Virus record (IMG/VR): IMGVR_UViG_3300030389_003544
Location: 1-33,938 of that record
DNA from: a virus
DNA: 33,938 bases
Direction: 5' to 3' (one strand)
Positions 2,918-32,340 of the stretch are shown here, in pieces. The stretch's first letter is position 1, and every line of letters starts with the position of its first letter. The notes under the pieces were generated by a model. The model saw only the letters and a program-made list of their open reading frames with translations. It ran no database searches and was not told the DNA's origin. The position numbers were made by a program, and so were the translations under genes.

Positions 2918-2952
2918 CATCAGAAGTTAATTAAATTTAAAAACCAAAAACT

Positions 2953-9534: not shown

Positions 9535-12500
9535 TTATTTATCGTCAATACTTATTGCATCCTCTAAATACCTGTCGAGATACCTATTATAAGCTTCATC
9601 TATAACTGTTTTAGATACTCTAGAGCTAGAAAGGATAGCTTTAACATTTTCTCCGTTAATACTATTTAATCTTGCTGCAGCTATAAGGTCAGCTAACTTA
9701 TTTAAATCCTCATTAAAACTAGAATTTTTTCTTGCCTCTTCTCTTAGAGCAAAAGGATCTTGCAAAACTTCTTTACCTACTCTACTTATCATATTTTTAT
9801 GTAGTAAGTTAGATTTTATTGCTAAACCTTTGTTAACATTAACTCTATTAATTCTTATACCAAATATAGCAAGCATTTCATATCCTGGAACTAATTCAGA
9901 GTCTTCATCGTATACAGATTCAAAACCTCTTTGAACTGTTCTACCAACACCAGGTTGAACTTTATCTCCAACATATATAATCATCTTTCCAATTGCCTTA
10001 AGTCCAGTATCTGTTTCATCAAATACTTTTCCACCTTTATTTGTTAGAGCCTCTCTTACAGCAATAGCAGTCATTTCTTCTCCTAAGAATGGAGCATATA
10101 TTTTTTCAAGAATATTTAAAGCACTATCTTGACCAAGCTGTGTGTCTATATCTGTAAATGCCAACCTCATAATATCTTTCATGTAACCAACACCAGATAT
10201 ACTAGAGAAGTTTATGTAGTCAAAGTATCTATCTCTTTCAGTCTGATCTTCAGATTGTTTAGATTCTAAAAACCCTCTGAACATGTAAGATATATTTCCT
10301 GGTGCGTCCCACTCAGGAAGTAAAAGACGCATCTTTCTTCTCTCCACATCATCATCATCTTCTCCACCAAAACCTAAGAACTCACCTAAGAATTGAGCTG
10401 TATATAACTGAAGACCCTCCATTAGAGTCATTGTAGCAATAGTTCCCGCTATTCTTGTAGCACCAATTCTTCTTATCTTTGGGTTACTACTACCCATCTC
10501 TTCAAATCCTAACATAACAGTGTTCTTAGCGTTACGAACAGATTCAGCCTGGAAAGCAACGAATGATCCTACTAAAGGAGAACGACCAAGGAATCTTATT
10601 ATACGAGGTATCTCGTTGTAATTAGGATAAAGGTTTCTAATATTCTTAGCGGCCATTTCCTCAGCTACCGTAACATCTAAACCAGCCTTTATATATCTAC
10701 CTCTTTCAGATAAGTATCCAAATATCTTCCACACATCATCTTCAGCTTGATAAGCCCTCATTAGTTTTTCATCAAATGAAGATATTCCTTCTTTAACAGT
10801 ACCAGATACTTTAGCTACTCTTTTTTGTATCTTGCCATTTTTTTCGTTAATATATTCAGTCAAATCAAAATTAGTATTTCTAAGATCCTCTGATATGTTT
10901 TGAATTTCAGCCAAAGAAGCAGAAGAATTTACTACACCTAATCTTATAAGCTTATCATACAATTCTTTAAATTCTTCACTCTTCGTGCTTTTAAAAGCTT
11001 CTATAGATAGCTTACCATCTTGATAAATTTGCTTTAGATCAGGAGTTAAGTGGCCATTCATCATAGCAAACGAGCTATTACCTATAATGTTTTTAGCATG
11101 TGTACCAGGATTCCATACAGTCTTCATTTTTTTATTAAACAAAACAAGTTGCATGTACTTATCGTATACCTGTTGAAAACCATTTTTCTCAAAAGTTCTA
11201 TTAACTTGATTCATTACAACGTACATCTCATCGTCAACCCACTTACCATCTAAGTCTCCCCATTTAGAACCCTCCAACTTATTTCTAGTGGAAGGTGTTC
11301 TTTCGTTTGATATGAACTTTCCTTGACCTATATTATTAAGTTCTCTATACATTCTCTCAGCAGAGATTGTTTTAGCAACTTTAGATATGGTATTACTATA
11401 GTTTATCAAAGGACTGTCTATCTCACCCCACAACTCTCTTATCTCTTTAGGGATAACTTTCTTTTGCATAAATATAGAGTTAACCCTTGTTAGTCCTTCT
11501 AAGCTAGAAGATCCACCTGAAAACTTTAAGAAATCTTTTTCTTTAACTAACTCATCATAAGCTTCACCTGCTTTATTTAAAATAGCATCTTCAGACATAA
11601 GTGTTATCAGGTTGCCATCTTTATCTATCTTACCATCCTCAACATCTCTTATGTTTTGATTCTTAACCTCTCTGTATAGAAAGTCTTTAGCGTTTTGTAT
11701 TATATCATTATCTGTTTGCTCCCAATTTTTAGTCTCAAACTGTCTGTAAGATCTTGTAACATATAATCCCATATTAGAGTCAATGGTAAACATAGTCTGT
11801 CCCGCTACTAGACCCTCTCTAATAAGTGTTCTACTTAACTCATCTATATGAGTTCTCATCTCTAGAAGAGCTGTTCTAAGCTCAGACTTCTCCATAGCTT
11901 TTATATCTTCAACATTATGTAGAAGATCATTAACTTGCTCAGGAGTTATGTTAGAATCTTTTATTGTGTTTTTCAATAACCTAAGGTTGTCATCAACTCT
12001 AAGAAGTTCAGCTTGAAGATCACCTCTATTTCTAACCATAATCTCTTTTATCTCCTCGTTAGAGTGAGAGCCAAATGGTTTAGCCAATAGTTTAGACAAC
12101 CTTATGTCGTAACCTTCAAATTGTTTTCTAGGTTTATCTAAACCAGTTTTAGCTACTTGCTTAGTAACATATTTACCTGCCTTATAATCAGCATCTACAA
12201 CTGACTGAGCAATATCAAAAGCTATAGTTGTTAATCCTGAAGTGTAAACTACATTTTCTGTCTCCTCTTGAGTAGCCTGCATTCTAATATCACTTATAAC
12301 TTCAGACTTTACGCCTACAGGATTTACAATATTATCAGGAAGTATGCCCATCTTTTGATCAGCAAAAGGTCTCTCAGACAAAGGAACATAATCCTTGTCA
12401 CCCTTTTTAGGTATAGTCCCATCTTCTCTTCTAATATTCTTATTATAATTTACCCAAGAGTTTTGACCTCTAGTCTCAGTAGTCATTGCTTTTCTAGCTT

Positions 12501-15500
12501 CAGAGCTATACATTCTAGAATGATTAAGCCAAGCATTTTCTTCACCGATAGGACCAAAACCATTACCAATCTCTGTGTGACCAAAGAAATCGTGAACAAA
12601 TCTAAATATATCATTTACAACAAGAGGCTCTCCATTTACATCTTGATACTCAGTTCTAGAAAGCATAATATTTTCTTGCCTTTGTTCAGGTGTAATAACA
12701 CCCTCTCCAAAGCCAGCTTCTGTTCCAAATATATATAAATGTTTATTATCTCTAACATCTTGAATCATTTCAGCACTATTAGCGTAAGGTTCACCCTCAC
12801 CCTTCCATATTTCAATCTTATAACCTTTATTTATTATAGACTTGTATTGTTCTAAAGTTTCATCAGCTAAAGCTTTGTAGGCTCTTATTACCTGTGGATT
12901 TTTAGGATCATCAACTAAACTATCGTAAGCATCTGCAATCATCTTAGAGTTATCTTCATCTAAACGATTAACAAATGTTGGGTCAGAGTACTGATCTATT
13001 CCAAGTTCTGTTGCTTTATCCGAAAGATAAGACTTAGATATGTCTGCAGTTTCTGGATTAGGCTCACTAAATAAATTTGGATTTTTCTCTCTAATCTCAG
13101 CCAACCTATCTATATCTCCAACCTCAAACTCAACGCCACCAACAGTAATTTTCCTACCATTTACTAAGGCTTCAGATAAATTTGTTTTTACATCAGATAA
13201 AGACATCTGATTAAGGTCTATAGCTTCAACATTTTCAAAAGGAGATACAATACCAATTCTAGATAATATTTCTCTTATAACTCCTCTAATTCTAGATAAA
13301 TTAGATTGCTTATTTAAAAAGTGACCATAAGCAGCGTCACCCATCATTTCAGCAAAAGCCTGTTCAGTAATATAACTAAATCTTTCAGGTCTTTCTTTTT
13401 TAAATTTCTCTAAATCAAATTGATTAGTTTTTGTATTATAATAAGCCTCTACCTCTTCTTTTGTAGTATAATTATTTAAAGACCAATCAATGTAAGATCC
13501 CTTCATTCTACGACCATCCTTCATCACCCTTCTTTTAACATCACTCTCTTGAACCTCAGCCTCTATTCTTTCATACAAGTCAGCGTCATTCTTCTTGATA
13601 AAGTCAACCATAGGGTGAATGATCTCTTGGAACAAAGTGTTACCCTGAATAGTTTCAAGGTTTACGTATATAGTTTTATTAGAGCCTCTAAAGAAAGAAC
13701 TCATTTTTTTAGAAGGGTCTTGACCTATGGCTTTTAATTGTTCAGCCATTGCGTTACTGTTTCTAATAACAGTAATGTTAAGCCCACCAATAGAGTTAAG
13801 TAGTTTAAAGGCAAAACCTAAAGCTCTCTTTCTGCTTTCGTCTAATCCTTGGAATAACTCAGCATCATAGTTAGCATTACTCTCATCCAGCTTATGAATG
13901 TTATCTGAGTTAAAGTTTTTACCATAACTAGTTTTAATTTCATCTAACCCCATGTGCATAGAAACTTTTCTACCACCAATATTCATTATGGTCATATCTT
14001 TTCTTTTTCTAGCATCTGGTCCTTTAACAACATCACCATTTAAAGGAACTACACGTCCATCACCAAACATTAACCCATTCTTAGATGAGAAGATGGACTC
14101 TTGTTGGAACTGATTACCTATGTTTAAGGCAGTAGCATTATCTATTCCTGTTACCACAAGGCTTTCTTCAGCAACCCCGTTATAAATACCCTGAACGGTA
14201 TAATAAGTTGCACCAGACTTATCTAACGTAGACTTAAGATTCTCCATTCTAGAGGATATTTCTTTCTCTGTTAAACCCTCTCTCTGTGAAGATAATATGT
14301 AGTAATCGTTGTTATCTATAACCTCTTGAGGTATCTCATCAAGGTTTTGTTTTTGAGTATTTGTAAAAATCTTATTATTAATAGGAAACAACTCACTATC
14401 TAATATCTCACCTTTCTTAGCAGCATCTCTCTTAAGTTCAAAGTCTTTCATAGCGTTTCTAGCTGCAGAAACACTTTTGAACCTACCTTGAGTTATCTCT
14501 GAAGTTTGAATAGTCTCACCATTAACCCTTATACCGCTTTGATTTTGAGACTGAACTATTGTCGGCTTTCTTTTACCGTTTTTTAACTGATTCTTAACAG
14601 AGTTATACTGTTCTTGACTATCTATCTTTGTAGCATCTACAGTTTCATTAACATTAGAAATAGATACGTCTTGAGAGTCGACAGCATCTACTATTTCTAT
14701 GTTGTTATCATCAAGTATTTCTTTAACTTGAGCCCTAACAGCTTTAGTACTTTCAGTAACGTTGTACTTAGATTTTTTAGCTTCAAGATTTAATTCACTT
14801 AATTGTTTAGCTAGATTAGAGACATCCTCTGTAGAAACTTCGTAATCCTCATTATTTGCCTTAGCATCTTGTTTAGATTGATTTATCTTTTTAGACAAGT
14901 TAGATACAACCTTCTCTTTTTCAAACATCTTAGCTTTAGCCTGTTGAGCATCAGGTGCAATGTTACCATAAACTAAATCATCTATAGCTTGTCGAGCCTC
15001 ATTATTTAAAGAGTAGTCTACCTTAATTTTACCATCCCTAATTTGCTGAGCTATTTCTGGATCTTTAACAAGATTGACAGCCTCACCTCTAGACACTTCT
15101 CTTGTTTCACCATTTTCATTCGTAAAGATTACAGAGGTATTGTTATTGATTATATTTAAATTTTTAGTAATATCTTTAGCACCTCTAACTGTAGTATACA
15201 TACCACTACTAAATAATATTGACGCAATACTTGTATCTATCAATCTAACACCAAACTCTCCAGAGTCAAAATCTTCAAGCTCCACAGCCACATCAGATAA
15301 ATACTGAATCCCCTCTGTTGCTACCTCAGAAGAGGTTTCTACAAACATAGACTTTTTAATACCGTTAAGATAGCTATCTAATAGCAAGCCAGGATCCACT
15401 ATAGCTTTACCTCCTCCAGCTTTTCTAGCTTGATTTAGTATTCTTAAGGTGTATTTCTCAAAAAACGCTTCAGTAGCAATGGTTGCAGCCTCACTAAAAT

Positions 15501-16920
15501 GTATCTGCCAATTCGTTATATCCGCATCTCTGGTACCTTGCTCTATACCAATTCTTCTTCTTTCTTTAAGTTCTAAAGATTTCATACCTCCAGCTGCTCC
15601 ACCACCAGCAAGTAAGGATTTTGTCGGACCAATAAGACGAGAACCTACACCTATAGATAAAGTAAAAGGAATTGCGTTAGCCACAGCGTTACCAGAGTTA
15701 AAAAACGCATCTTCATAGTTACCGCTTATAAGAGATTTGTAAATAGATTCTTCTTCAGGTACTCTAGTATATTCTCTTATGCTTTTTGCATAATCACGAA
15801 CCTTATTAGCATAGTATCCACCATATGTCATATAGTAATCCCAACCAGACATATCTTTAAACTCTTCGTCATACATTATAGGAGTTGGTAATTGATCTAA
15901 AGCAGCACCACCTTTCTCTAACTGCTCAATAAGCCCAGCAGATAAATCCGCAAATGTAGCCATAAAATTCTGGACAATATCTCCATATCTGCTCCCAGAA
16001 TTAATCTGTCTATTCATCAAATCTTCAACGTACTTTAGAGACTCGTAATTTGGATCACTTGGATCTGGAACTTGTATATTAAAGTTTAAGGTTTCTCCCT
16101 CTTGAGCAGCGTTAACATTATCTGTATCTAACCAATAGTCTAAAGCTTCATTAATGGAGGCTTCCCTACCATCTATCGTTATGGCAGACATTCTTATATT
16201 ATTTAGGTCTATACCTGATTGCTCTACAGATTCAGAAAATTCTTGAGGTGATTGAGATGATCTAGCTATGGATTGAATCAAATCATTATCATAATTTACC
16301 TCTGCAGAACGAATTTTGTCTTTGTTTTCGGAAAAATATGTATCGTAATTTACTATAGCAGTTGAGTAAGGATCTTCTTCAAGTATGTTATCATCCTCTC
16401 TAATTATCTTATACAATCTCTCAAAGAAACTAAGTTTGTCTAACTCCTCCTTATCTCTCTTCTCCGAATATTCAGCAGAAGTTTTCTCTTTACGCAGTTT
16501 TAGAAACTTATCGTAATCTAATCCTTGAGCCTCAAAGAAAGGTCTTTTGTCTTCTTGCCTAGCTATCTTTATCTTCTCCTCTTTGGATACATCACCATAA
16601 CTAGCTAATCTTTCCTCTAAGCTAAGTTGCGTTTTTTGTTCCAAAGAAGATTGACCACCTTCCGATACTGAAGTAGAAACCTCTGTATCCACTTGGGCAC
16701 TCGTGCCTTGAGGCATAGAAGAATCTTTTTTTTTTACATCACTCCATGCTGATTGAAAAGTCTCAAGATTTGTCGTATTAAATAAACCTTTATTTTTTCC
16801 TAAATCGTAAAGCTTACCTTGTACATCAATATCAGAATCTTTAAACTGTTCTAAAGATGTTTGTGATGTTAAGATGCCTTTATCTACATAAAGATTATAA
16901 AGTTGTTCTAACTTATCCAT
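9535..16920 (-). CDS. Giant virion protein, probable DNA-ejection (gp16-like) polyvalent protein (2461 aa)
   Basis: Last late gene, third of three that follow the nozzle in T7 gp14-15-16 order. Residues 1-65 hold two related motifs (LYNLYVDKGILT..TSLEQF and LYDLGKNKGLFN..TNLETF). Hydrophobic segments lie near 410-445, 565, 2105-2135 and 2155-2185, fitting insertion into the cell envelope. Near 1100, ..FQEIIHPMVDF with a later EQAFAEMMGD looks like a degenerate metallopeptidase. Near 1435-1475, FRFVHDFFGH, GEENAW and TTETRGQNSW form a conserved His/Glu-rich phage domain of unknown chemistry. Near 1935, WNPGTHAKNIIGN resembles polyvalent-protein-associated domains. I found no DxDxD motif of the giant crAss-phage RNA polymerases. 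Ejection role is inferred from order and architecture. Confidence 0.8.
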   Translation of the reverse strand: MDKLEQLYNLYVDKGILTSQTSLEQFKDSDIDVQGKLYDLGKNKGLFNTTNLETFQSAWSDVKKKDSSMPQGTSAQVDTEVSTSVSEGGQSSLEQKTQLSLEERLASYGDVSKEEKIKIARQEDKRPFFEAQGLDYDKFLKLRKEKTSAEYSEKRDKEELDKLSFFERLYKIIREDDNILEEDPYSTAIVNYDTYFSENKDKIRSAEVNYDNDLIQSIARSSQSPQEFSESVEQSGIDLNNIRMSAITIDGREASINEALDYWLDTDNVNAAQEGETLNFNIQVPDPSDPNYESLKYVEDLMNRQINSGSRYGDIVQNFMATFADLSAGLIEQLEKGGAALDQLPTPIMYDEEFKDMSGWDYYMTYGGYYANKVRDYAKSIREYTRVPEEESIYKSLISGNYEDAFFNSGNAVANAIPFTLSIGVGSRLIGPTKSLLAGGGAAGGMKSLELKERRRIGIEQGTRDADITNWQIHFSEAATIATEAFFEKYTLRILNQARKAGGGKAIVDPGLLLDSYLNGIKKSMFVETSSEVATEGIQYLSDVAVELEDFDSGEFGVRLIDTSIASILFSSGMYTTVRGAKDITKNLNIINNNTSVIFTNENGETREVSRGEAVNLVKDPEIAQQIRDGKIKVDYSLNNEARQAIDDLVYGNIAPDAQQAKAKMFEKEKVVSNLSKKINQSKQDAKANNEDYEVSTEDVSNLAKQLSELNLEAKKSKYNVTESTKAVRAQVKEILDDNNIEIVDAVDSQDVSISNVNETVDATKIDSQEQYNSVKNQLKNGKRKPTIVQSQNQSGIRVNGETIQTSEITQGRFKSVSAARNAMKDFELKRDAAKKGEILDSELFPINNKIFTNTQKQNLDEIPQEVIDNNDYYILSSQREGLTEKEISSRMENLKSTLDKSGATYYTVQGIYNGVAEESLVVTGIDNATALNIGNQFQQESIFSSKNGLMFGDGRVVPLNGDVVKGPDARKRKDMTIMNIGGRKVSMHMGLDEIKTSYGKNFNSDNIHKLDESNANYDAELFQGLDESRKRALGFAFKLLNSIGGLNITVIRNSNAMAEQLKAIGQDPSKKMSSFFRGSNKTIYVNLETIQGNTLFQEIIHPMVDFIKKNDADLYERIEAEVQESDVKRRVMKDGRRMKGSYIDWSLNNYTTKEEVEAYYNTKTNQFDLEKFKKERPERFSYITEQAFAEMMGDAAYGHFLNKQSNLSRIRGVIREILSRIGIVSPFENVEAIDLNQMSLSDVKTNLSEALVNGRKITVGGVEFEVGDIDRLAEIREKNPNLFSEPNPETADISKSYLSDKATELGIDQYSDPTFVNRLDEDNSKMIADAYDSLVDDPKNPQVIRAYKALADETLEQYKSIINKGYKIEIWKGEGEPYANSAEMIQDVRDNKHLYIFGTEAGFGEGVITPEQRQENIMLSRTEYQDVNGEPLVVNDIFRFVHDFFGHTEIGNGFGPIGEENAWLNHSRMYSSEARKAMTTETRGQNSWVNYNKNIRREDGTIPKKGDKDYVPLSERPFADQKMGILPDNIVNPVGVKSEVISDIRMQATQEETENVVYTSGLTTIAFDIAQSVVDADYKAGKYVTKQVAKTGLDKPRKQFEGYDIRLSKLLAKPFGSHSNEEIKEIMVRNRGDLQAELLRVDDNLRLLKNTIKDSNITPEQVNDLLHNVEDIKAMEKSELRTALLEMRTHIDELSRTLIREGLVAGQTMFTIDSNMGLYVTRSYRQFETKNWEQTDNDIIQNAKDFLYREVKNQNIRDVEDGKIDKDGNLITLMSEDAILNKAGEAYDELVKEKDFLKFSGGSSSLEGLTRVNSIFMQKKVIPKEIRELWGEIDSPLINYSNTISKVAKTISAERMYRELNNIGQGKFISNERTPSTRNKLEGSKWGDLDGKWVDDEMYVVMNQVNRTFEKNGFQQVYDKYMQLVLFNKKMKTVWNPGTHAKNIIGNSSFAMMNGHLTPDLKQIYQDGKLSIEAFKSTKSEEFKELYDKLIRLGVVNSSASLAEIQNISEDLRNTNFDLTEYINEKNGKIQKRVAKVSGTVKEGISSFDEKLMRAYQAEDDVWKIFGYLSERGRYIKAGLDVTVAEEMAAKNIRNLYPNYNEIPRIIRFLGRSPLVGSFVAFQAESVRNAKNTVMLGFEEMGSSNPKIRRIGATRIAGTIATMTLMEGLQLYTAQFLGEFLGFGGEDDDDVERRKMRLLLPEWDAPGNISYMFRGFLESKQSEDQTERDRYFDYINFSSISGVGYMKDIMRLAFTDIDTQLGQDSALNILEKIYAPFLGEEMTAIAVREALTNKGGKVFDETDTGLKAIGKMIIYVGDKVQPGVGRTVQRGFESVYDEDSELVPGYEMLAIFGIRINRVNVNKGLAIKSNLLHKNMISRVGKEVLQDPFALREEARKNSSFNEDLNKLADLIAAARLNSINGENVKAILSSSRVSKTVIDEAYNRYLDRYLEDAISIDDK

Positions 16921-19627: not shown

Positions 19628-22600
19628 TTATTTATTACTAAGCTCACTCTTGTCTACGTCTGCGTTTGCAGCGTAAAGATTAAACTTCTTTTTAGACTGG
19701 TTAGTGTTAGTGGCTAATATAGTCCTCATATAACTACCCTTCATTCTCTCACCCTCTATAGATCCTGTTTTAGTCATAAATAAAAAGCCTCCACTATAGC
19801 TAGGGTCATAAGAATAACTCCCAGCAATAAGTATCTTAGTTGCATTATTTTCATTAAAAGTACCAGAAGTTATCGAGTATGGGTATCCTAAAAATTCAGT
19901 CGTTCCATCAAGTTTTTTAATATACAGTCTAAGATCAGCACTCATAACTCTACTACCTGTAGCTGAAGATACACCATTATGTATTATAATGTTACCTATA
20001 GATGATTCATCAGACTCGTAAGATGAGTCAGAAGCACCAATTAAATCTTCTTCTCCTTCAGCTATGTATGTTACAACATATCTTGCTCCATTAACCATAT
20101 CACTTGGTGGTATCTGTTTGTTAATATCTGCAGATGTTAGTTTTGTAAGTATAGACAAGTTTTCTCCATCATCATCTAAACCTGAAACTACACCAACACC
20201 CTGTATATCTGATCCGTCACCAAAATTAAGGTTATCTTCCCTAGACTCTATATCAGATGTGCAGAAAGGAATATCAGCATATTGTATACCCTCTTTGGTT
20301 TTATAGTCAATGACTAACATAGTATTATTATCCAAATCCAAAGCGACCTCTTCTTCAACCTCTATCAAGGTATTTGATATTACTTTAGATACTATGTGTT
20401 GTTCTTCAGATGAGTTTCCAATAACTTTAATTAAATCACCTGGAGATACATCTTCATAAAATTTAGTGTCTAGACCTTTTATTTCAAAGGCAGAAGAAAC
20501 TGAATCACTACTACACTTACCTCTAACCTTTTTAAAAGCAATGTTTGTAGTTATAACTTCATCATAACCACCATAGTGTTGACCCATATTAGAGAATAAA
20601 CCCGTAATAAATTTTGTATCACTCTCTAAAGCTAAAGCATTATAAGTCTTAATAGATGAAGGCTCTGCGTTAAATACAAAGTCAATATATGATAAGTTGT
20701 TGTTACCATAAAACTTATTATACGATTGGGTGCTTCTAGAGTATTTATCTGAATCGTTATGTCTGTACAATCTACCCTGCTTGAAAGTAACAAACTGTCT
20801 ATTAACCTTACAGTAATATTCAGGAATATAAGAGTAGAAAGATGTCCATCTATTTGATTCTTCGCTAAAAGCTACAGTAACAGGGTTAAATATAACAACC
20901 TTATCATCAAAAGCATCTTCAGGTTTAGTTGTTATATCATCCCAAGTAGCGATGCTATCACTCCAAACATAAGTTTCAGCTGTATACCCAGAGTCTGTAT
21001 TACTAATTATTGAAGGGAATGTTACTACATACTCATTATATTTAGGATCATAACCACCAACAATAGAAGGAGTAAACTCTAAATCGTTATTGTACTCTGG
21101 GTTATACTTTAAGAACATTTCACCTAGGTCTCTAAAGTAATCCTTCATGCCATTGTCAGATATAACTGTAATACCATCATTAGATAGTCTAAGAACAGAT
21201 CCTCTTTGTATGTCTGTAAAATAGAATACATTACCTTGCTTTACTACGGACTCAGGATTTAAACTACAACCATATTGACCTGAATAAACCAGAGCATAAT
21301 CACCTATAATCTTGTTAGATAAAGAAACTAAACCTTCTCCTGAAGCTGTGTTAAGTATATCCTTACCTACTAAAACTCTACCAACCTTACTCTCGTGAAA
21401 TATAATTAAGTCGTTGTTCTTATTGGTTAAATATTGAATAGATCCAAAGTCTTTATTATAATCAAAGTAAGGTATGTTTGCTAAGTTGAAGTTACTTAAA
21501 CCGTTTATAGCACCTGTACTTACATAAGGCTCAGAGAAGAATACAGAAGCTTTGAGTCTTCTTTCTTTTGAGTTGTTGTTAACTACGTTTATACGACCTT
21601 TGTCGTAGTGATCAGTTCTATGAAAATCGTTTAGGAAGTAGTCTTCACAGGCAAACGTATGTGAATTAGCTCCACCTGTGGTAGTATACATAGATCTAGA
21701 TTTCAAATAAATATCTCCACCTTCTAGAACTACTGTAGCAGGAGTTAAAGAAACTTCTGTATTTACATCTTTATCGTAAAAATATTCAGGAACTTGATTT
21801 AATTGACCTCCATGGTATCTATTTATTTCACCAGGGTTTCCGATTTCAATTTTATTACCAATCTCGTAATAAACCAAGTTTTCTTCTTCTTGATTTAATC
21901 TAGGTCTGTATATCTCAGCTATAAGTTTATTATAGCCACTAGTAGAAAGAGAGAATCCTGTATGAGATATACTTACAGAATCACCACTTTCAAGTTCAAC
22001 ATCGTCACCACTATCTGCTGGGTTAGCAATTCTTAAATAAAATCCATCTCCATCTTCTGATGCTGATATAGGGTTATCTACATCGTGAAGATCAAATCCT
22101 GTAATTTCAAAATCTAAATATTGAGTAAATAGTTGTCTTTCATTGTCTTTCTCGCAGCTAATAAACCTAATTCTATCTCCCTTAACAACGTCAAAATCTA
22201 CTAAAGCACCTGAAGAATTTATATAACCTACATCTTCTGCTTTTAAAGACTCTAAACCTAAATACATTTGAGTATCGTTATTATCTCCAGCAGCAGTTTT
22301 AGCTATTGTAACTTGTATAAACTCACCAACAGAAGTGTTACCAGCATAAAGCATTTGATAATGAGTAGCCCATTTAGGAGGCTTATTGTATATGTTAAAA
22401 GTAACATCTGAAGATTGACCAGATAGTGCCCCTGACTCAGTGATAAAAGGGTTGTAACACCTAGTACCATTTAAATTAACATTAACAGAAGGTTCTCCAA
22501 AACCTTCTTTTAGCTCAATATTAGATCCAAAATCAGGAGCTACATTTACAAAAGAACATCTGTTTGTCTCGTCAAAGTACGCTATACCAAAATCATGAAA

Positions 22601-25600
22601 AGCACCTGATTTAAAAGAGTTAAGAGATGCAGATCCTTGTGAATAAACAACACTAATATTAGAACCAACTTTAACCCATCCGTTATAATTAGTACCCCAT
22701 TGAGTAACTGCTCCATTTAAACCCTGGCTATTTTCAACACATGTCCATTTTACTTTTAACTTTGTACTTCCACTAACTGTTACAGTTAAACTGTCTAAAT
22801 CTTCGTTATTAGCGTCCTCTATACTGAAAGAGTTTACACTTGCCCCACCTTCAAAACCGCCATTTTCAAATTTAGTTATAATTTCCTGCCTAACCTGATT
22901 TATTGTAGTCAATCCAGTAAGGTTAACATTCATTGAAAATTTACCAGACCTAAAAAACATCTGTTGACCACCAAGAGTAGAAGCTCTTCTTTTTAGACCC
23001 CAACCTAAAAATATAGATATAAATTGAGACTGCTCATCATCAAGATTAATCCCGTCTAGGTCTATAAAAAGACTAACCCTACACTTAGCATTACCACTAG
23101 TACCCCAGCTAGCTACTGAAATGTCTCCCTCATTAATAGTTTGAGCTATAGGATGAGAAGCAGCAGCTGAGCTTGGACTATTACCACTACCTAAAGTAGA
23201 GGTGGTAACTTGATTGGTATTATTGTTTTTAGCAAATACATTAACATCTGTAATAAACGTATTAATAACAGGGTTGTCTTCAGTTGAAAACTCACTCTTA
23301 ACCACCATAGGTGTATTGTCAAAACCTTCAACCACGTTACCATAAGCAATTCTATTGTTAGATAACATTGTTTGTGCTTTAGCGAGCTTAGGAACAGAGT
23401 CAAATAGCTTGTTAGAATCAGCTCTATCTACAAAAGGATAAACACCATTATTCTTAAACTTAATTATAGACTTAGGTACGTCAAAGTAAAAAGCAGGATC
23501 TGATATAACAGTATTCTTAATCTTCTTTAAATAACTAGTAAAATTATTTTGAACAGTGTCCACTAAAACAAACTCACCATCATTTCCTGTTCTAGCTACT
23601 ATCTCTATTTTTTCAACATCAGATATAGTATCAAAATATTCTACATTAATAATGTTTTTAACATCTTGATAGTCAGTATATTTTAAAGGACTGTTTCTTA
23701 AAAATGTAGTATCTGGGTTTATATCAGATATACCACTGTATGATGTGTTTTCATTATCATAGTGTATGTACCTATATTTAAACTGAAATAAATTATCTAA
23801 TATGTTATTTTTACCAGAAGAATCAAAAGACAATTCAGTCTGAGGTCTTAACTCAGGTTGGTGTTTAATAACATCTAAATATTTTACTTTGTCGTCATAT
23901 TTACCAAAGCTAATTAAAGGTGAGTAAGCGTCATCAGGATCTGCATTCATTAAAATACCTGAAGCTACAGCACCAGACTCAAAAGGACAGTTAGTTAGTA
24001 AACCTCCTATACTTGTTTCTATACCGTTTAATAATATATTTAAAGGTTTTGCAGCTTCTGCTGTAAAGTTAGGTGGAGACTCAACTGTTATTGTAGTTGA
24101 AACTATATTTGTAACCTTAAAGAATCTAGGGAAATTGTCGTTATCCATAATCCCAATAAACTCTCCTGGAGCTAAAATATTGTCACTAAGTATTGACTGA
24201 CTAGCAGTAATTGTGTTACTACCACTAGTAACATTAAAGGTAAATCCAGTTTCAGGGTCATTTGATATTCTTCTAATAATACCAATAACTTCAGACCAAC
24301 CATTAAATTGAATTTGATCGTTGTCACCAATCTGTGAAAACACGTTGTCACCGACTTTAAATGACCTAACCTTTTCATCTTCAAAAGATAAAAATGCTGA
24401 ATTATTAAATCCACCAGGGAAGAATACATCTTCAACCTTAAGAGAGTTTTCAATATTTTCCTCGTTCTTTTTACCTAACTCAACGTTAATTTTTCTAGGT
24501 CTGTTGAGGTTATCTGTAAAGTATAAAATATCATCAATCTTACTAACACCTGTAATTAAGTTAGACTTACTAAAGTTAAGAACAGTTTCTGCCTCACCAT
24601 TATAACCTAATCTACCATCTTGGTATACAGTTTTAATTCTATCTAGTGCTAAGTCATACTCTAGTATACAATCAAAATTATTCACAGAGGTGTCATGAAT
24701 AAAGTAATATATCCTACTTAAAGGTTTGTCTTCGTAAGATCCAATACAGATAAAGTCTTCACTAGCTAAACTAACAGACCTATTTGTATTTAATATTGAG
24801 TTATAAATGTATCTTCTAACACCCCTTGTTATAGTAGGACTCTCATCTGTAGATTTGTTTACTATAATATCAGAATCTGAAGATGGCATCGTTGATGGCA
24901 CATCTAAGCTATAATTATTATAGTTATCAGAAGATGCTGCCCTAACAAATCCTTCTACAGTACCTGACTGCTGTGGTTGTGGTATACTGAGAGATCGAAC
25001 AACATAATTAGTTACTGTACCTGAAATGTTTAATGAGTCATCTTCTACGTGGTGACCAGCACCAAGGCTAGTTCGATCTGCCCAACCTTTTGTAGCAATA
25101 TCTCCCGAAAATTGTAACCCAACAATATCAAATAATTTATAACTTGAATTATTTAGACTAGTTGTCTCTGCAGTATCAAGATTATTGTCTATCACTATTG
25201 CTGATTTAATTTCCCATCCGTCTCTATTTTCGGGGTCTTGAACATGAACACTAAATCCAAAATTACCTAACGCTGAATCCTCCCAACTAACATCATTATT
25301 GTCACTTAGAACTGATACTGCATAATCAGTGTAATCCACATTATGAAAGTCGACAATTATTGGTATATCTTCCCCTCCAAAAGGAACAGTATAACTATAA
25401 GAACCAGGATTCAAAAGGTATCCAGTCTCAGAATCATAGCTACCTCCAGTTGCTTGAAGATCTCTATAATAATCTTGAGTAGTACCTGTAACACCATTAT
25501 CTTGAAGATACTTCGCCTTAATAGCATTTTTTACAATTTTTAAAAATGGAGGTCCATCATATCCTACGGTACCATCCCAAAAATCAAAAGTACCTTGAAG

Positions 25601-28600
25601 TCGCCTTCTATTTTCTGTTTTCAGATGATTCTTGTCACAGTAAGCCCCAAAATTATGTCTTTCACCTGGAAAAACATCTTCGTTTGTTAAAAAAAGATGC
25701 CACCTATATTTATCCTCATCAAATCCTAAATTAGTTATTGAGCTGCTCCAGATAGAATTATTTCCAGATATTACAGGGGTTACTCTGTCTATCTCTATTT
25801 CAAAGAAATTACCTTCTTGTGCTGGGTCGGTGTTACCCGCACTATCAATTTGATTTTGAATGTAATTTGTAAAATCATTTAAAGCAGTTAAATCATCATC
25901 AAGGTTAGCTTGGTTATTTTGAAAAGCAAGTGTTACACCATCAATATAACTTTCATCTATAGTGCTTGTTAATAACAACTCTGTTATAGTAGAATTTATA
26001 GATTCTTGAAGTAAAGCAGAGGAAGTAGTAAATTCAGTCAATAAAGCTTCATACTGTTGTATTTGATCAGTAATAACACTAAGACCAGAAGATAAATCTT
26101 CTATAACAGTTTCTGCAGTCTCATCTACAGCCTCAACATCTTCTTGAAGGCTAGAGAAAGAATTTTGAAGATCTTCCAAAAGAGCTTGTGTTAAGCCTGA
26201 AACACTTTCAGCATAAGCTATAGACATACTCTCTATAACAAATAAAGGACCTTCAGTATTTAAAGCTTCATCTGATAAAGCTCCTTCGGTCTGTATTAAA
26301 ACTATTACGCCAACTATATCCTCAGGTGAAAAATCAGATGGAGGTTCAAGAACATAAACACCAGGTTCTGATATTGTAGGAAAATAAAAGTAAGGTGATG
26401 CATTTTGTCTTGCCACTCTAACAGTAAAAGGATGAACACAAAAAGGTACGTTAATAGTTAATCTAAGATTTTGTACCTGTGAAGAAGGTATATTAATGTC
26501 ATTATTTATTGGAAAGTGAGCAGATTTAAAGGCACCATTGTAAACTGAGCCATTATCTGCAGTTTGAGAAAACTTTATAGAACCATCAGACTGAGAGAAA
26601 AAATTACCTTGTGGTTGACTAAAACCAATATTAGTGTTAAGAGTTGGGTCTGAAACAAGTTCTAATGAAGTTATAGTAACTTGATTGCTAAATTCATCTA
26701 TTGTTTGTTGCAAACCATCATTAGCAGTATTAGCTGCATCTAATAAATCTTGTAAGGCATCTAGGTCTTCAGAAAGTTGCGAAGCTTCAAGAGCAGAAAC
26801 AGCAGCAGCATCTTCAGCAGCAGCTTGAGCAGCTTCAGCAGCAGTAACATTAGCAATTGCTTCTGAATTTATATCAGCTATCTCTTCAGCTTGAGTGACT
26901 TGTAAATCAGATATTTCAGCTTCGTGAGTGGCTTGTAAATCAGCTATCGCTGCATCGTGAGTCTCTTGTAAACTACCTATCGCTGCATTGTGAATCGATT
27001 GCAACTCCTCTATCGCTTCAGTATTAGACTCGCTTATCTGATCTATCTCTGCAGTGTGAGTGTTTTGTAAATTAGATATTGCAGCTTCGTGAGTGGCTTG
27101 CAAATCAGATATTTCAGCTTCGTGAGTGGCTTGTAAATCAGATATTGCAGCTTCGTGATTGGCTTCAGCAGCATCAGTTAAAGCTTGAAGAGCATCTAAA
27201 TCTTCTTGAGTAATACCGTCTTCTGGAATTACTGAAGCAACACCATCTTGATAAGCAGCATCATTATCTGTAGTAATATCTACCGAATGAACACCATTAA
27301 AAAAAGATGTATTTATATTAAGTTGTAACTGAGCAGCTGCAAGGGTAGCAGTAGCTTCATTTACTGCTATAGTAGCGTTATCTACTGCGTTTTGAAAAGC
27401 AGCAGTAGGACCACCACCATCTGGAAATTGTTCAATAATCCCATCCAGGTTTGTCTGAGCATCATCTAAATCTTGCTGAGCAGCATCTAAAGCTTCTTGT
27501 GCAGCATTAACAGCATCTTGTGCAGCATCCTTATTAGAAGTGGCATTATTAAGTGCAGTCTGATAATCAATTTCACCTATCTGTCCTGCTAAAGCTGTAT
27601 TATATAAGGTTTGTAATTCATTATATTCACCTGCAGCAATATTTTGAGCAGTAAGAACAGCAGCGTCTATATCCGCCTGACTTATTCCATCTTCTGGAGT
27701 TACTGAAGCAACACCATTGTCAAAGGCAGTATCAATAAGAGCTTGGTTATCTACAGTAATATCTACTGAAGCAGCACCTTCTGCAAAGGCAGCATCAAGA
27801 TCAGCCTGAGTTGCTGCAGATTGAGCATCAGTTACTTGAGATTCAAGATCGAGAATTGTTAAGTTATAACTATCTGCTTGAGCATTAAGAGCACTAGAAA
27901 TTAAAGTAGCAAGACTCTCTAAAGTAGGATTTTCACTTAAATAATCAGACGCATCAAACAACGCACTACCTACGTTAGCCACATAACTATCATAATTCAA
28001 TTGAACAGTATTTATGCTATCCTGAAGTTCAGAGAGCTGACTGTTTAGATTACTGTTTGCATCTTGAAGATTAGTTGCAGCTTGAATTAAACTTATCTCT
28101 GTATCGTTTTCGCTAATAATTATATTCGATAACTCATCCAACTCAGCTTTTAATTCTTGATTTTCTGCTGTTAAAGCATCTATTGTAGCTTGAAGATTAG
28201 GATCGGTAACAGTGGTTGTAGTTACGTTAACTAAATCTGCAGCTATTAAATTAAGTGAATGACTAATAGCATCTATACTTCCAGCATAAAGATTAATAAG
28301 TACATCTGGTTTTGGATCTGACGTTTCTAATATAAAGTTTGTTATAACATTTTTAAGCTGTCTTTGAGAGTCAAGAAGAGTTTTATTTTCACGTTGAAGT
28401 ATGTCTACAGTAATATTTGCTTTATCTAACTCGATTTGAACTTGAGCTAAATTTGAATTAGCTACATCTAATTGTTGCTCTAATCTACGTATTTCAGAAG
28501 TGTACTGGGATGTTATTGAGGCTATCTGTGCTGTCAATATTTCTATTTGAGCATTAGCGTTTTCTAACTCTAACTGCAACTGTTGATAATCAGCGTTAAC

Positions 28601-30406
28601 TGAAGATAAATCAGTTACTCCAATAGATCTATTAATAAGACTTATTGAAGTACCACTGTACCAAGATGGTAAAGTAGTAACTGGATTTCCAGCTGCTAGA
28701 TCGTTTCTTAACTCAGTTTCACTTGACGCAAAGGCTAATTTAAACCTTGTCAAACTTGGTGAAGCTAATCTAATAGTTAGACTATCTACTTGTTCGTTTT
28801 CTAAAAATAATCTAACATTTGTTAAGGTAAGAGTGTCAGAAGACGTAAAATCTTCATCAAACTGCAGAAATATAACAGAAGAATTGTTAGGATCATTTAT
28901 AGGTATACTATGAGTTCCATCAGTACTTATTGCACCAAAGGAATCATTACCTATATTAACAGTAAAACTATTACCAGATGGTAATCCTGACACAGTTAAA
29001 TCTAACTTAAAGTTTTTACCCTCTATTATATTTGATTTAAGAGTATAAGTGTTTAAAGCTTTTACCTCTTCACCACTAAATGTTAAAGTACCTTCACTAA
29101 TACTAAAACCATCACCCTCTATTACTTCTTCACTATTGAAATAAAACTCTAACTGAGAGTATGAAATAGCGTCTGGGTTGTTTCTACCTAAAGTAGAAGA
29201 TTTACCACCAAGACGTGTAGTTTTAACAAAGTTGGTTGTAATACTTGATAATTCAGTAGTACTCCCATTACTACCTTCTATGAAGACTTCTCCAAATTTA
29301 TCATCAGATATAGCATCGTGAAAAAACTGAGATATACTATCTTGAGATGGTCCAAACTCAAACTCACCACCAGTGTCAAATTTACCAGTTGAATCAGTTA
29401 GGTTTAAAAATTCTGTTACAACATAATCATTAATAGACGTGCCATCTCCAGCAGTTTGATCATAAGTATATATATTAACACCACCAGTTGTAACTTCACC
29501 CGTATTGGGGTTAGTAATCTGAGGATCACCAGGATAAGTTTCTGATTGATCCCCCTCAATAACTACATCTATTATTCCACCTCCTACGGTAGTTACTCCA
29601 GGTCCAGGACCAAATACGGTTCCCTCATCATCTACATTGGTATTATTGTTGGATTGCGAAAATCCAATAAAGCTAGTAATTATAGTATTGTCTCCAACGA
29701 AATAATTTTCATTAAGATCAGAATAATCTTCATCTACAAAATATGCTCCTTGACCATAACTTAAGTTATAAGGATAATTTAATCCAGATCTTATAACTAT
29801 ATTGAATACACCGCCAGGTTGATTAGATGTAAAAGTTACTGCAAATTCATTTGAGCCATCAAATAAATCACCAGGTAAAAAATCTACTGAAGCACTTATA
29901 TTTAAACTAAGACCTGTATTGTGATCTATTACGTTAAAAGAAGAAAGAGGTCCTCCTGGTCCGAATAAATCATAAAGTGTGTTTGAAGTAGATGTTAATT
30001 GATTATTACCATACCAAGCAGTGTAAGAAGTATTAATATAAGTAGGATCAGAATCACTAGAGCTAGTGTAACCTAATGTAAAACTAGATGGATAATCTAT
30101 TGATTCTACTCCTGAAAAAATTATAGTTTGAGATAGGTTTACAAGATCAGGTTGAACATCTTCTATATTAACGTTTGTACCATTAACACCTATACCTGAC
30201 TCTACGTTTACATACTGATTATTTTCAGTAATAAAATTATAAGGCACTAAAGTGTTACCCTCTATGTTTTCAACAGATCCTGCTGTAGAATCTGATGATG
30301 AAACACTTCTTATGTTTAAGGCATCTCTGTAGTCACCTTGCTTAATCAGGCGAGGATCAGAATCTTTATCCATCCCACCTGTAAAAACTTTTTTATCTTG
30401 TGCCAT
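19628..30406 (-). CDS. Giant tail nozzle/muzzle-type protein with large fibre-like insertion (3592 aa)
   Basis: N-terminus FTGGMDKDSDPRLIKQGDYR..ALNIR then ENIEGNTLVP (to about residue 56) is typical of crAss-like nozzle/stabilisation (gp12-type) tail proteins. Their expected continuation appears only at about 1882: FICIGSYEDKPLSRIYYF, LITGVSKIDDILYFTDN, KYRYIHYDNE, PPKWATHYQMLYAG, YGCSLNPESVV, and a C-terminus with EGERMKGSYM and NADVDKSELSNK. Between them lie beta-rich modules (about 60-600 and 1239-1399), coiled coils (about 600-690, 735-815, 1400-1530), Ala-rich repeats and nine 11-residue repeats (about 1082-1180). The insertion probably forms a fibre or adhesin at the tail tip. The gene starts 6 nt after the ring gene stop. 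Motif matches are from memory. Confidence 0.85.
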   Translation of the reverse strand: MAQDKKVFTGGMDKDSDPRLIKQGDYRDALNIRSVSSSDSTAGSVENIEGNTLVPYNFITENNQYVNVESGIGVNGTNVNIEDVQPDLVNLSQTIIFSGVESIDYPSSFTLGYTSSSDSDPTYINTSYTAWYGNNQLTSTSNTLYDLFGPGGPLSSFNVIDHNTGLSLNISASVDFLPGDLFDGSNEFAVTFTSNQPGGVFNIVIRSGLNYPYNLSYGQGAYFVDEDYSDLNENYFVGDNTIITSFIGFSQSNNNTNVDDEGTVFGPGPGVTTVGGGIIDVVIEGDQSETYPGDPQITNPNTGEVTTGGVNIYTYDQTAGDGTSINDYVVTEFLNLTDSTGKFDTGGEFEFGPSQDSISQFFHDAISDDKFGEVFIEGSNGSTTELSSITTNFVKTTRLGGKSSTLGRNNPDAISYSQLEFYFNSEEVIEGDGFSISEGTLTFSGEEVKALNTYTLKSNIIEGKNFKLDLTVSGLPSGNSFTVNIGNDSFGAISTDGTHSIPINDPNNSSVIFLQFDEDFTSSDTLTLTNVRLFLENEQVDSLTIRLASPSLTRFKLAFASSETELRNDLAAGNPVTTLPSWYSGTSISLINRSIGVTDLSSVNADYQQLQLELENANAQIEILTAQIASITSQYTSEIRRLEQQLDVANSNLAQVQIELDKANITVDILQRENKTLLDSQRQLKNVITNFILETSDPKPDVLINLYAGSIDAISHSLNLIAADLVNVTTTTVTDPNLQATIDALTAENQELKAELDELSNIIISENDTEISLIQAATNLQDANSNLNSQLSELQDSINTVQLNYDSYVANVGSALFDASDYLSENPTLESLATLISSALNAQADSYNLTILDLESQVTDAQSAATQADLDAAFAEGAASVDITVDNQALIDTAFDNGVASVTPEDGISQADIDAAVLTAQNIAAGEYNELQTLYNTALAGQIGEIDYQTALNNATSNKDAAQDAVNAAQEALDAAQQDLDDAQTNLDGIIEQFPDGGGPTAAFQNAVDNATIAVNEATATLAAAQLQLNINTSFFNGVHSVDITTDNDAAYQDGVASVIPEDGITQEDLDALQALTDAAEANHEAAISDLQATHEAEISDLQATHEAAISNLQNTHTAEIDQISESNTEAIEELQSIHNAAIGSLQETHDAAIADLQATHEAEISDLQVTQAEEIADINSEAIANVTAAEAAQAAAEDAAAVSALEASQLSEDLDALQDLLDAANTANDGLQQTIDEFSNQVTITSLELVSDPTLNTNIGFSQPQGNFFSQSDGSIKFSQTADNGSVYNGAFKSAHFPINNDINIPSSQVQNLRLTINVPFCVHPFTVRVARQNASPYFYFPTISEPGVYVLEPPSDFSPEDIVGVIVLIQTEGALSDEALNTEGPLFVIESMSIAYAESVSGLTQALLEDLQNSFSSLQEDVEAVDETAETVIEDLSSGLSVITDQIQQYEALLTEFTTSSALLQESINSTITELLLTSTIDESYIDGVTLAFQNNQANLDDDLTALNDFTNYIQNQIDSAGNTDPAQEGNFFEIEIDRVTPVISGNNSIWSSSITNLGFDEDKYRWHLFLTNEDVFPGERHNFGAYCDKNHLKTENRRRLQGTFDFWDGTVGYDGPPFLKIVKNAIKAKYLQDNGVTGTTQDYYRDLQATGGSYDSETGYLLNPGSYSYTVPFGGEDIPIIVDFHNVDYTDYAVSVLSDNNDVSWEDSALGNFGFSVHVQDPENRDGWEIKSAIVIDNNLDTAETTSLNNSSYKLFDIVGLQFSGDIATKGWADRTSLGAGHHVEDDSLNISGTVTNYVVRSLSIPQPQQSGTVEGFVRAASSDNYNNYSLDVPSTMPSSDSDIIVNKSTDESPTITRGVRRYIYNSILNTNRSVSLASEDFICIGSYEDKPLSRIYYFIHDTSVNNFDCILEYDLALDRIKTVYQDGRLGYNGEAETVLNFSKSNLITGVSKIDDILYFTDNLNRPRKINVELGKKNEENIENSLKVEDVFFPGGFNNSAFLSFEDEKVRSFKVGDNVFSQIGDNDQIQFNGWSEVIGIIRRISNDPETGFTFNVTSGSNTITASQSILSDNILAPGEFIGIMDNDNFPRFFKVTNIVSTTITVESPPNFTAEAAKPLNILLNGIETSIGGLLTNCPFESGAVASGILMNADPDDAYSPLISFGKYDDKVKYLDVIKHQPELRPQTELSFDSSGKNNILDNLFQFKYRYIHYDNENTSYSGISDINPDTTFLRNSPLKYTDYQDVKNIINVEYFDTISDVEKIEIVARTGNDGEFVLVDTVQNNFTSYLKKIKNTVISDPAFYFDVPKSIIKFKNNGVYPFVDRADSNKLFDSVPKLAKAQTMLSNNRIAYGNVVEGFDNTPMVVKSEFSTEDNPVINTFITDVNVFAKNNNTNQVTTSTLGSGNSPSSAAASHPIAQTINEGDISVASWGTSGNAKCRVSLFIDLDGINLDDEQSQFISIFLGWGLKRRASTLGGQQMFFRSGKFSMNVNLTGLTTINQVRQEIITKFENGGFEGGASVNSFSIEDANNEDLDSLTVTVSGSTKLKVKWTCVENSQGLNGAVTQWGTNYNGWVKVGSNISVVYSQGSASLNSFKSGAFHDFGIAYFDETNRCSFVNVAPDFGSNIELKEGFGEPSVNVNLNGTRCYNPFITESGALSGQSSDVTFNIYNKPPKWATHYQMLYAGNTSVGEFIQVTIAKTAAGDNNDTQMYLGLESLKAEDVGYINSSGALVDFDVVKGDRIRFISCEKDNERQLFTQYLDFEITGFDLHDVDNPISASEDGDGFYLRIANPADSGDDVELESGDSVSISHTGFSLSTSGYNKLIAEIYRPRLNQEEENLVYYEIGNKIEIGNPGEINRYHGGQLNQVPEYFYDKDVNTEVSLTPATVVLEGGDIYLKSRSMYTTTGGANSHTFACEDYFLNDFHRTDHYDKGRINVVNNNSKERRLKASVFFSEPYVSTGAINGLSNFNLANIPYFDYNKDFGSIQYLTNKNNDLIIFHESKVGRVLVGKDILNTASGEGLVSLSNKIIGDYALVYSGQYGCSLNPESVVKQGNVFYFTDIQRGSVLRLSNDGITVISDNGMKDYFRDLGEMFLKYNPEYNNDLEFTPSIVGGYDPKYNEYVVTFPSIISNTDSGYTAETYVWSDSIATWDDITTKPEDAFDDKVVIFNPVTVAFSEESNRWTSFYSYIPEYYCKVNRQFVTFKQGRLYRHNDSDKYSRSTQSYNKFYGNNNLSYIDFVFNAEPSSIKTYNALALESDTKFITGLFSNMGQHYGGYDEVITTNIAFKKVRGKCSSDSVSSAFEIKGLDTKFYEDVSPGDLIKVIGNSSEEQHIVSKVISNTLIEVEEEVALDLDNNTMLVIDYKTKEGIQYADIPFCTSDIESREDNLNFGDGSDIQGVGVVSGLDDDGENLSILTKLTSADINKQIPPSDMVNGARYVVTYIAEGEEDLIGASDSSYESDESSIGNIIIHNGVSSATGSRVMSADLRLYIKKLDGTTEFLGYPYSITSGTFNENNATKILIAGSYSYDPSYSGGFLFMTKTGSIEGERMKGSYMRTILATNTNQSKKKFNLYAANADVDKSELSNK
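26867..27163 (-). repeat. Nine tandem 33-bp repeats encoding hendecad coiled coil
   Basis: Within the giant tail gene, nine consecutive 11-residue units occur, such as ATHEAEISDLQ, ATHEAAISNLQ, SIHNAAIGSLQ and ETHDAAIADLQ. Position 3 is usually His, and 7 and 10 are Ile and Leu. Some copies are almost identical at DNA level, suggesting recent duplication. Hendecads form right-handed or straight coiled coils, suited to a rod in a fibre. Confidence 0.85.
27190..27790 (-). repeat. Two copies of an SVDI-ASV-PEDGI(S/T)Q module
   Basis: Two segments of the giant tail protein share the same order of motifs: ASVDITVDN..., DNGVASVTPEDGISQADIDA (about 27660-27790) and HSVDITTDN..., DGVASVIPEDGITQEDLDA (about 27190-27300). 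They flank an Ala/Gln-rich helical stretch. Similar PEDG(I/V)xQ.D.DA modules occur in other phage and surface fibres. An internal duplication is the simplest explanation. Confidence 0.75.
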
Positions 30407-30412: not shown

Positions 30413-31612
30413 TTATATCTTAGGAGATTGCTTAAACGCTTTTCTAGAAATCTGCATAGCAGCCTCTTTATTAAAGTTCATCATTCTAGCTCTAGCTAAT
30501 CTTTTCTCGTTGTAATATGCTCTCTTAGCCATTTGTTTTTCGTTAGCAGGAACACCACGTTTTCTTTGAATGTATTTATAATACATGTAGCAACGTAGAG
30601 CCTCCTCACAAAATTTGTGAACTCTAGGGCCTTCTCCTTTAACGCCTTTTTGAATTAATTTAATTGAGTTTTGTAAAACCTTAATACCTGTAGTAGTTTC
30701 CCCATCAGAGTCTACATCTTGATTTGTATTAATTGAAAAAGTTGAATTTTCAATAGAAAGAGGATTTACAGTTATATCTTTATATGTTAAAGTAACTATG
30801 TTTGAACCTGTATTTTGAGACGCTTTTATTTTAGTGTCTAAAGGAAGTTTATTAGTTGCTCCAAAGCTAGGATAACCTTCATTTATTACAGTAGAGAATT
30901 TTTCTGCTACAACAGAATGGCTGTCATTTTCTTCAATTTGAATAAAACTAGAATTTAACGCAGCATTAGTTGTAAAAGTAAATTCATGAGTAGTAGTAGA
31001 AAAATCAGATTTTGGTATTCTTAATTTAGCTCCAGAAATAATTGCACCAGAGTCATTAGTTGAAGCTTTATTAAAGTTAAGTTGAATAACATGATCTCTT
31101 GGCTGAACGGATCCTATACCATCAGAGATGTATTCCATAAATACTATTTTACCAGAAACGTTTGAAGAAAAGTTTATAGTATTATCATTTCTGTTTAATC
31201 TATAATAACCTAAGGCATTTTGACCACCTCCTACACCATACTTTCTACCAATATCAGTATGAAAATAAGGATTGTTTTCATCGTAAAGGTCTGTGTTTAT
31301 CTGTGAATCTACGCCAGAGTCTAAAGATAAATTAGATTTATAACCTAAAGAAACAAACTCATCATCACTGTTTTTATAACCTATTCTTAATAGTTTAACA
31401 AAGTCAGAAGGAAGATCAACATTTAATCCAGAACCTACAGTTTTTGTTAATGTTTTAACTTCTTGTTCTGCATCAAATTTTAACTCTCTAAGCCCTTGAA
31501 GTGCTAATAATCTTAACTGATAAATTTCTGCGTCTTTATCATAAGACGTGTCATCCATCATTAACTGAAAGTCATTTACGACCTCATCTATACTTGTATA
31601 ATCTATTGCCAT
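30413..31612 (-). CDS. Tail ring protein, gp11/tail-tubular-A-like (399 aa)
   Basis: N-terminal SIDEVVNDFQLMMDDTSYDK (about residues 7-26), then EIYQLRLLALQGLRELKFD and LPSDFVKLLRIGYKN (about 58-75), and a C-terminal helix-rich EEALRCYMYYKYIQRKRGVP / AKRAYYNEKRLARARMM (about 336-380). This layout (helical N-terminus, LP.D...L..IG strand, Tyr/Arg-rich C-terminal helices) matches adaptor or ring proteins between portal and nozzle in crAss-like podoviruses. The middle (about 160-310) is a beta-rich insertion. It starts 2 nt after the other ring gene and ends 6 nt before the nozzle gene. Confidence 0.75.
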   Translation of the reverse strand: MAIDYTSIDEVVNDFQLMMDDTSYDKDAEIYQLRLLALQGLRELKFDAEQEVKTLTKTVGSGLNVDLPSDFVKLLRIGYKNSDDEFVSLGYKSNLSLDSGVDSQINTDLYDENNPYFHTDIGRKYGVGGGQNALGYYRLNRNDNTINFSSNVSGKIVFMEYISDGIGSVQPRDHVIQLNFNKASTNDSGAIISGAKLRIPKSDFSTTTHEFTFTTNAALNSSFIQIEENDSHSVVAEKFSTVINEGYPSFGATNKLPLDTKIKASQNTGSNIVTLTYKDITVNPLSIENSTFSINTNQDVDSDGETTTGIKVLQNSIKLIQKGVKGEGPRVHKFCEEALRCYMYYKYIQRKRGVPANEKQMAKRAYYNEKRLARARMMNFNKEAAMQISRKAFKQSPKI

Positions 31613-31614: not shown

Positions 31615-32340
31615 TTAACTATCTGCTTTTAATTCACTAGCCTGTGCGTACTGAACAACATCAGCCTCTCTAATTGAAACTCCTAAATATTCTAATATCT
31701 TTACTACAATCTCTCCATGACATCTACTAGATATTTTAAATTCAGTTGATGATGAAGAATCATGAACAGGCTTACCTGCTACAGTGACGTAACTCCATTT
31801 TGGATTATTAGCGTATCTGTAATGATAAGCTATAACTTTTTTTATAGCGTCAGGAAACACGCTAAACTGCTTTGATGTACCACCATCTGCTCCAAGTAAA
31901 GCTATAGGATACTCTATAGATGGCTTGACCAAACTACTTCTAAGTATTTGATTTACATCTTTTGGCTCTACAATATCTAAAGGAATGTGATGTGAAATAT
32001 CGTGATGCTCATCCACATGAATAAACATGGATTCTACATAATCAGCAGTTACAATCACACTTCTTCCCTTGTATGGTACCGATGATTCATTCGCATCTAC
32101 ATCAGATCTAAATAAAAAGGTAGCTATATCTTGCCTTGCCAGCTCTGGAGATAAATTTTCTGCGTATAATCCTTGAGATTTTCTTGTAGGTGATTTTTGC
32201 TTTATTATAGAAAGTCGTTTATTGTATAGCTCAAGTTCAGCTTGCTTTGCTAAAAGGTTAAAGTCAGACGGACTTATAAATCCCCTCTGCTCCTTATTTG
32301 CAAACACCTGAACTAGCTTATATACTTCATCAATCGTCAT
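31615..32340 (-). CDS. Tail ring/adaptor protein (241 aa)
   Basis: N-terminal TIDEVYKLVQVFANKEQRGF followed by ISPSDFNLLAKQAELELYN (residues 2-40) is the recognisable signature (NKEQ.G...P.DFN) of a crAss-like ring protein of the tail barrel. The central part has PLDIVEPKDVNQILRS and the C-terminal part KVIAYHYRYANNPKW and HGEIVVKILEYLGVSIREADVV. It is soluble, without membrane segments. It heads a transcript just after a terminator and a perfect -7 box (32363-32370), which would give tail genes separate expression from capsid genes. Confidence 0.8.
   Translation of the reverse strand: MTIDEVYKLVQVFANKEQRGFISPSDFNLLAKQAELELYNKRLSIIKQKSPTRKSQGLYAENLSPELARQDIATFLFRSDVDANESSVPYKGRSVIVTADYVESMFIHVDEHHDISHHIPLDIVEPKDVNQILRSSLVKPSIEYPIALLGADGGTSKQFSVFPDAIKKVIAYHYRYANNPKWSYVTVAGKPVHDSSSSTEFKISSRCHGEIVVKILEYLGVSIREADVVQYAQASELKADS

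Follow-up and report, generated by a model that had tools for sequence, protein, structure and literature searches.

Short-tailed phages normally carry their tail appendages as separate fibres held by docks, and in crassviruses the muzzle is the counterpart of the T7 and P22 nozzle. The 45-residue N-terminus of T7 gp12 supplies three strands of the nozzle platform (PMC6702177). In the SU10 nozzle, the chain passes from the N-terminal platform into the propeller at blade 1, and propeller blades 1-3 are distant from the channel (PMC9509320). The length variation and insertions reported for the crassvirus muzzle family are confined to its crass and IG2 regions (PMC10172136). The locus described here carries a giant arm between the N-terminal segment and the propeller, and in some of its relatives that segment and the arm together occupy a gene of their own.

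The window, the whole 33,938-nucleotide stretch of viral DNA that was analysed, contains a single unbroken ORF of 3,592 codons at 19628-30406 on the minus strand, where all parts of this gene given below also lie. ORF, strand and length are as the first-pass annotation gave them, and the nozzle-type character that it assigned to the product holds. Its name, crAss-like nozzle, is more exactly muzzle, given a C-terminal match to PF25729 (crAss_MUZ_C; aa 3228-3264, 20615-20725; 30 bits, cut-off 27) and the fold of an armless relative, L135. The C-terminal half matches PHROG 14478 (E 3.8e-75), and a tblastn search with aa 1853-3592 matched structural proteins of Cellulophaga, Flavobacterium, Tenacibaculum and Maribacter phages; aa 1-1852 gave zero matches in 50,697 phage records. 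A PDB sequence search with the core, a core profile and the insert matched nothing. L135 scores 77 bits against PF25731 (crAss_MUZ), and when its AF2 model (pLDDT 76) was submitted to Foldseek, the top PDB match was the phiCrAss001 muzzle 7qok_A (E 3.3e-33), followed by the nozzles of SU10, cyanophage A4, P22 and T7. It is on L135, rather than on the window protein, that the platform-and-propeller fold is established. By homology, PF25729 and the L135 comparison, aa 1877-3592 (19631-24778) would comprise the propeller, an IG/crass-type region and the C-terminal platform strands, so that the C-terminal part is indeed muzzle. The gene also adjoins ring-protein genes. The product is best read as a tail-tip muzzle, presumably hexameric, from a crAss-like phage that would infect Bacteroidota; the closest isolates with family names belong to the Pachyviridae and Pervagoviridae, neither of which is listed under Crassvirales.

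Together, aa 1-54 and 1877-3592 make up an ordinary muzzle of about 1,770 aa, close to the roughly 1800 residues first proposed, and aa 55-1876 (24779-30244; 1,822 aa) are extra. Phage homologues match window aa 1-54 and then, past 10-15 residues of their own, window aa 1882 onward, so the insert limits placed earlier at about residues 56 and 1880 were nearly exact. In pairwise alignments with these two window regions, the segments aligned were residues 1-53 and 67-165 of Manatee, 3-50 and 64-163 of phi38:1, and 11-57 and 62-154 of elemoF. To measure the spacing, small profiles were built of the N-terminal motif and of the first propeller region; the distance between their matches is 4-28 aa in about 80 viral-contig homologues, against 1,822 aa in the window, and 8-20 aa in 72 further homologues from deeper in the family. 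The comparison of relatives that the first-pass annotation had called for thus found the insertion absent from about 150 muzzles and present in one clade, outside which no homologue aligns colinearly through aa 60-1850. Among the homologues compared, an arm at this site is confined to that clade; each large scan used the best 80 homologues out of more than 500 that were confirmed, and rarer armed cases may occur elsewhere. None of the phage isolates in the collection carries the arm, the armed genes all coming from uncultured viral contigs, and one scan of genome contigs found a single distant muzzle, L161. One locus, L034, was dropped from the core model because its C-terminal part looks incomplete. 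A core stretch of some 190 aa (aa 1991-2177; window about 23876-24436) is absent from most armless homologues, which gives the window clade further insertions of smaller size.

Arms in the clade are either giant (about 1,180-2,120 aa) or small (about 160-250 aa). The insert measures 1,382-2,122 aa in one-gene giant-insert relatives and 209-251 aa in one-gene small-insert relatives; in the corresponding two-gene forms, the first gene encodes 1,181-1,526 and 209-245 aa. Some single contigs bear duplicate locus identifiers (L016=L108=L160, L017=L123, L008=L100, L007=L103, L013=L111).

From its sequence and an AF2 model of the L115 arm, the arm appears to run from a beta-rich base through helices, a beta module, further helices and a second beta module, with a return linker in fused forms. 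The base (aa 55-600; 28607-30244) is conserved among giant arms, with 57-90% identity per 100 aa to L008, and shows strands in the L115 model. Beyond it lie a heptad coiled coil (aa 601-760; 28127-28606; hydrophobic autocorrelation 0.27 and 0.19 at lags 7 and 14) and hendecad repeats (aa 1086-1225; 26732-27151; 0.34 and 0.35 at lags 11 and 22), and the PEDGI motif occurs twice, at aa 904-908 (27683-27697) and 1061-1065 (27212-27226). The coiled coils, hendecads and duplicated PEDGI modules noticed in the first-pass annotation are therefore real features of the sequence. A putative beta-sandwich module (aa 1271-1425; 26132-26596) precedes the second helical segment (aa 1426-1575; 25682-26131), with helices at the corresponding position of the L115 model, and a second beta module (aa 1576-1800; 25007-25681), which was recognised from sequence. 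The return linker (aa 1801-1876; 24779-25006) ends where split relatives have a gene boundary. Pfam and PHROG matches of the arms were mainly to coiled-coil families, and tail-fibre families gave one weak PHROG match, in one of 26 members. Pfam, PHROG and Foldseek revealed no known receptor-binding domain in the arm. A split arm modelled alone reached a low-confidence pLDDT of 52.7; in Foldseek it showed weak jelly-roll likeness (EphA ligand-binding domain, CBM22, gingipain adhesin; none at E<=0.001), and its BFVD matches were uninformative. Receptor binding is a reasonable, putative role for the arm.

In two-gene phages, the first ORF consists of the N-terminal segment, which we call the anchor, and the arm, and ends in a stop codon; the second starts at an ATG 3-28 nt past that stop, shortly ahead of the propeller, and continues from the propeller onward. 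Gene order is kept, the arm gene and then the muzzle gene following the ring gene and preceding the next structural gene. Like junctions recur across separate data sets (L109/L120, L112/L131, L126/L127/L137/L139/L140/L154, L128/L129/L143 and L138/L142/L158). On a tree of the core region, the one-gene or two-gene state switches four times, at the arm's end, and with an armless one-gene outgroup the shortest history is four separate splits, two of which (L016 and L119) are each seen in a single contig nested among one-gene relatives. Anchor and arm form a unit able to live on its own gene, and this is a stronger result than the insertion itself. We found no description of such a unit in the open-access literature that we searched. 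The C-terminal end of the muzzle offers a separate observation: its last ~240 aa form a structural gene of their own in Cellulophaga phage phi19:3 (gp121, L001:16342-17067) and in the Manatee Spring phage (L002:17020-17823). The 241-aa gp121 is 38-41% identical to the C-terminal ~240 aa of phi38:1-type muzzles, and gp120 and gp121 are both annotated as structural proteins; by homology, this gene marks a second split point of the muzzle chain.

The anchor (aa 1-54; 30245-30406) aligns in all homologues and, by analogy with T7 and SU10, would supply the N-terminal strands of the platform, the domain that joins the ring. Between the window and L008, its dN is 0.008 and its dS 0.54, a dN/dS of about 0.015. 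For detached anchors, seven split pairs were compared: six have dN of 0-0.05 and dS of 0.06-0.42, and one is near-identical, too similar to judge. The detached anchor is under strong purifying selection, and therefore it probably still completes the muzzle platform domain from a separate chain. The 220-aa first ORF of L126 matches crAss_MUZ positions 3-54 at 22.9 bits, under the cut-off of 27. In AF2 models, pLDDT is 72-92 over residues about 10 to 55 of L135 and below 40 for this segment when the arm protein is modelled by itself; a segment whose folding requires the muzzle would behave in this way, although low confidence can have other causes. Mutual information between anchor and core gave no decisive signal (Meff 83).

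The arm evolves faster towards its tip. By Nei-Gojobori estimates from few pairs, dN/dS is about 0.4 in the arm base and 0.6-1.07 in the distal arm (0.6-0.8 in the second beta module), against mostly 0.2-0.45 in the core and about 0.2 in its first part. The distal module at aa 1271-1425 has a dS of 0.10 relative to L007, compared with about 0.5 over most of the gene, and about 30% identity to L008 in aa 1301-1400; it therefore looks to have been swapped recently between two relatives. The core-region tree places the armed phages on one side of a branch with support of 100/100, which supports a single origin of the arm at this site, and resolves small-arm (100/99) and giant-arm (99/97) clades. 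In profile comparison, small and giant arms have the anchor alone in common (58 columns), so the two types may differ in content and origin, and there may have been two separate gains of arm content.

Next to the muzzle gene, a 399-aa ring/adaptor protein (30413-31612, minus strand) carries an insertion of ~140 aa at approximately 30665-31090; its match to the SU10_adaptor and CrAss_Ring_1 models is below cut-off. A second, 241-aa ring-type gene (31615-32340, minus strand) is a conserved neighbour. The ~140-aa insertion is present at 31 of 33 giant-arm loci and at none of 17 small-arm loci, where the ring protein has 241-256 aa, making a dock for the arm possible. An obligatory dock was rejected, as two giant-arm loci (L102 and L116) lack the insertion, which is not strictly required.

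The first-pass annotation had also supposed that such an arm would spare the phage a separate tail-fibre gene, and here it was wrong: the same 59,981-base record encodes one (L019:5535-7268, G000 about 52535-54268, plus strand; PHROG tail fibre, E 2.6e-39) with a GNAATAT-type repeat, and a LamG-domain protein. Elsewhere in the record, outside the window, a minus-strand gene (L018:12027-13562 joined with L019:3-1385) encodes a product rich in GCTDPxAxNY repeats, with a T9SS sorting domain (Por_Secre_tail, 50 bits) at its C-terminus; it adjoins other secreted-looking proteins and is unusual phage cargo. Within the window, 9535-16920 on the minus strand encodes a protein of 2,461 aa that matches DUF3293 weakly, scoring below cut-off; related phages have giant proteins at the same downstream place, one of them likewise with DUF3293.

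We suggest that the window protein is a muzzle with a strand-clamped, outward, host-contacting arm, joined to it or separate, and put the probability of this whole proposal at roughly two in three. Residues 1-54 would add beta-strands to the platform and so clamp an arm to each muzzle subunit. Because, in T7 and SU10 nozzles, the chain passes from platform to propeller at blade 1 on the side facing away from the channel, the arm, which would sit at that crossing, should project outward near the level of the adaptor; this placement is drawn from published descriptions and our alignment rather than from coordinates. Its exit point would be on the outside of the tail where ring and muzzle meet, which is the position of the fibre docks in T7 and SU10 nozzles, and its distal modules would contact the host surface. 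If the anchor pairs its strands non-covalently with the platform and so completes it, the covalent link to the propeller becomes dispensable, and the arm could be either joined to the muzzle or separate. That the platform is completed in trans by the N-terminal strands of a fibre-like protein, with fibre-muzzle continuity repeatedly broken or restored at one junction, we hold to be somewhat better than an even bet.

Could the fusion be an artefact, a chimeric assembly or mis-called frame joining a fibre gene to a muzzle, with sequencing errors producing the splits? That all armed genes come from uncultured contigs, with no armed isolate in the collection, would suit it. However, the identical fused architecture recurs at the identical site in many distinct contigs, the splits turn up again in independent data sets, with the stop/ATG junctions clean and gene order conserved, and one-gene and two-gene states follow the tree. 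This explanation is refuted in the main and hardly credible, the L016- and L119-type splits remaining single-contig.

Two other readings accept the arm and differ on its direction or role. An inward arm, acting as a tail-lumen plug or tape-measure-like element, would accord with the long helices, with weak matches of a few arms to tape-measure PHROGs and with phiCrAss001, in whose tail interior a cargo helix lies next to the ring-joining domain. Six such arms, each about 1,800 aa long, would nevertheless be a very large mass for the lumen, entry at blade 1 in SU10 places the crossing where blades 1-3 are far from the channel (PMC9509320), and distal dN/dS near 1 with apparent recent exchange of a tip module suits an exposed surface; we regard this reading as improbable. 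Somewhat less improbable, though still unlikely, is an arm that acts as a structural spacer or adds a layer to the tail, perhaps wrapping the barrel or reaching the capsid, and has no receptor-binding role. The arm base is conserved, the arm has no recognised receptor-binding domain, the phage has a separate fibre gene, and the enlarged adjacent ring protein in most giant-arm phages could pack against the arm. Such a role is harder to reconcile with distal modules that are fast-evolving and mosaic, and with the weak jelly-roll or carbohydrate-binding likeness of a beta module (none at E<=0.001).

An arm that is inserted in the muzzle of some phages, and shares a separate gene with its anchor in others, points to a new means by which a phage may fix host-contact arms on its tail. 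If the proposal is correct, it is a natural example of attachment modules being gained, joined or separated, and swapped, and it provides a direct test case for strand complementation in a phage tail. The short anchor sequence could then flag muzzle-bound appendages in unannotated phages. Arms that probably contact the host would also be located on the very assembly controlling the release of DNA.

Among known systems, phiCrAss001 gp44 (PDB 7QOK; PF25731/PF25729) shares with the window muzzle its core family, its fold, as judged through the armless relative, and its neighbouring ring genes. Unlike the window muzzle, it is described without an arm between the N-terminal part and the propeller (PMC10172136). 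The muzzle chain of phi19:3 (gp120/gp121) is also split, but near the C-terminus and without a giant arm. T7 gp12 and SU10 gp17 are alike in having N-terminal strands that complete the platform, entry into the propeller at blade 1 and fibres at the adaptor/nozzle level; their fibres, however, are separate trimeric proteins seated in a dock, whereas the window arm is continuous with the muzzle or would be anchored to it by strands.
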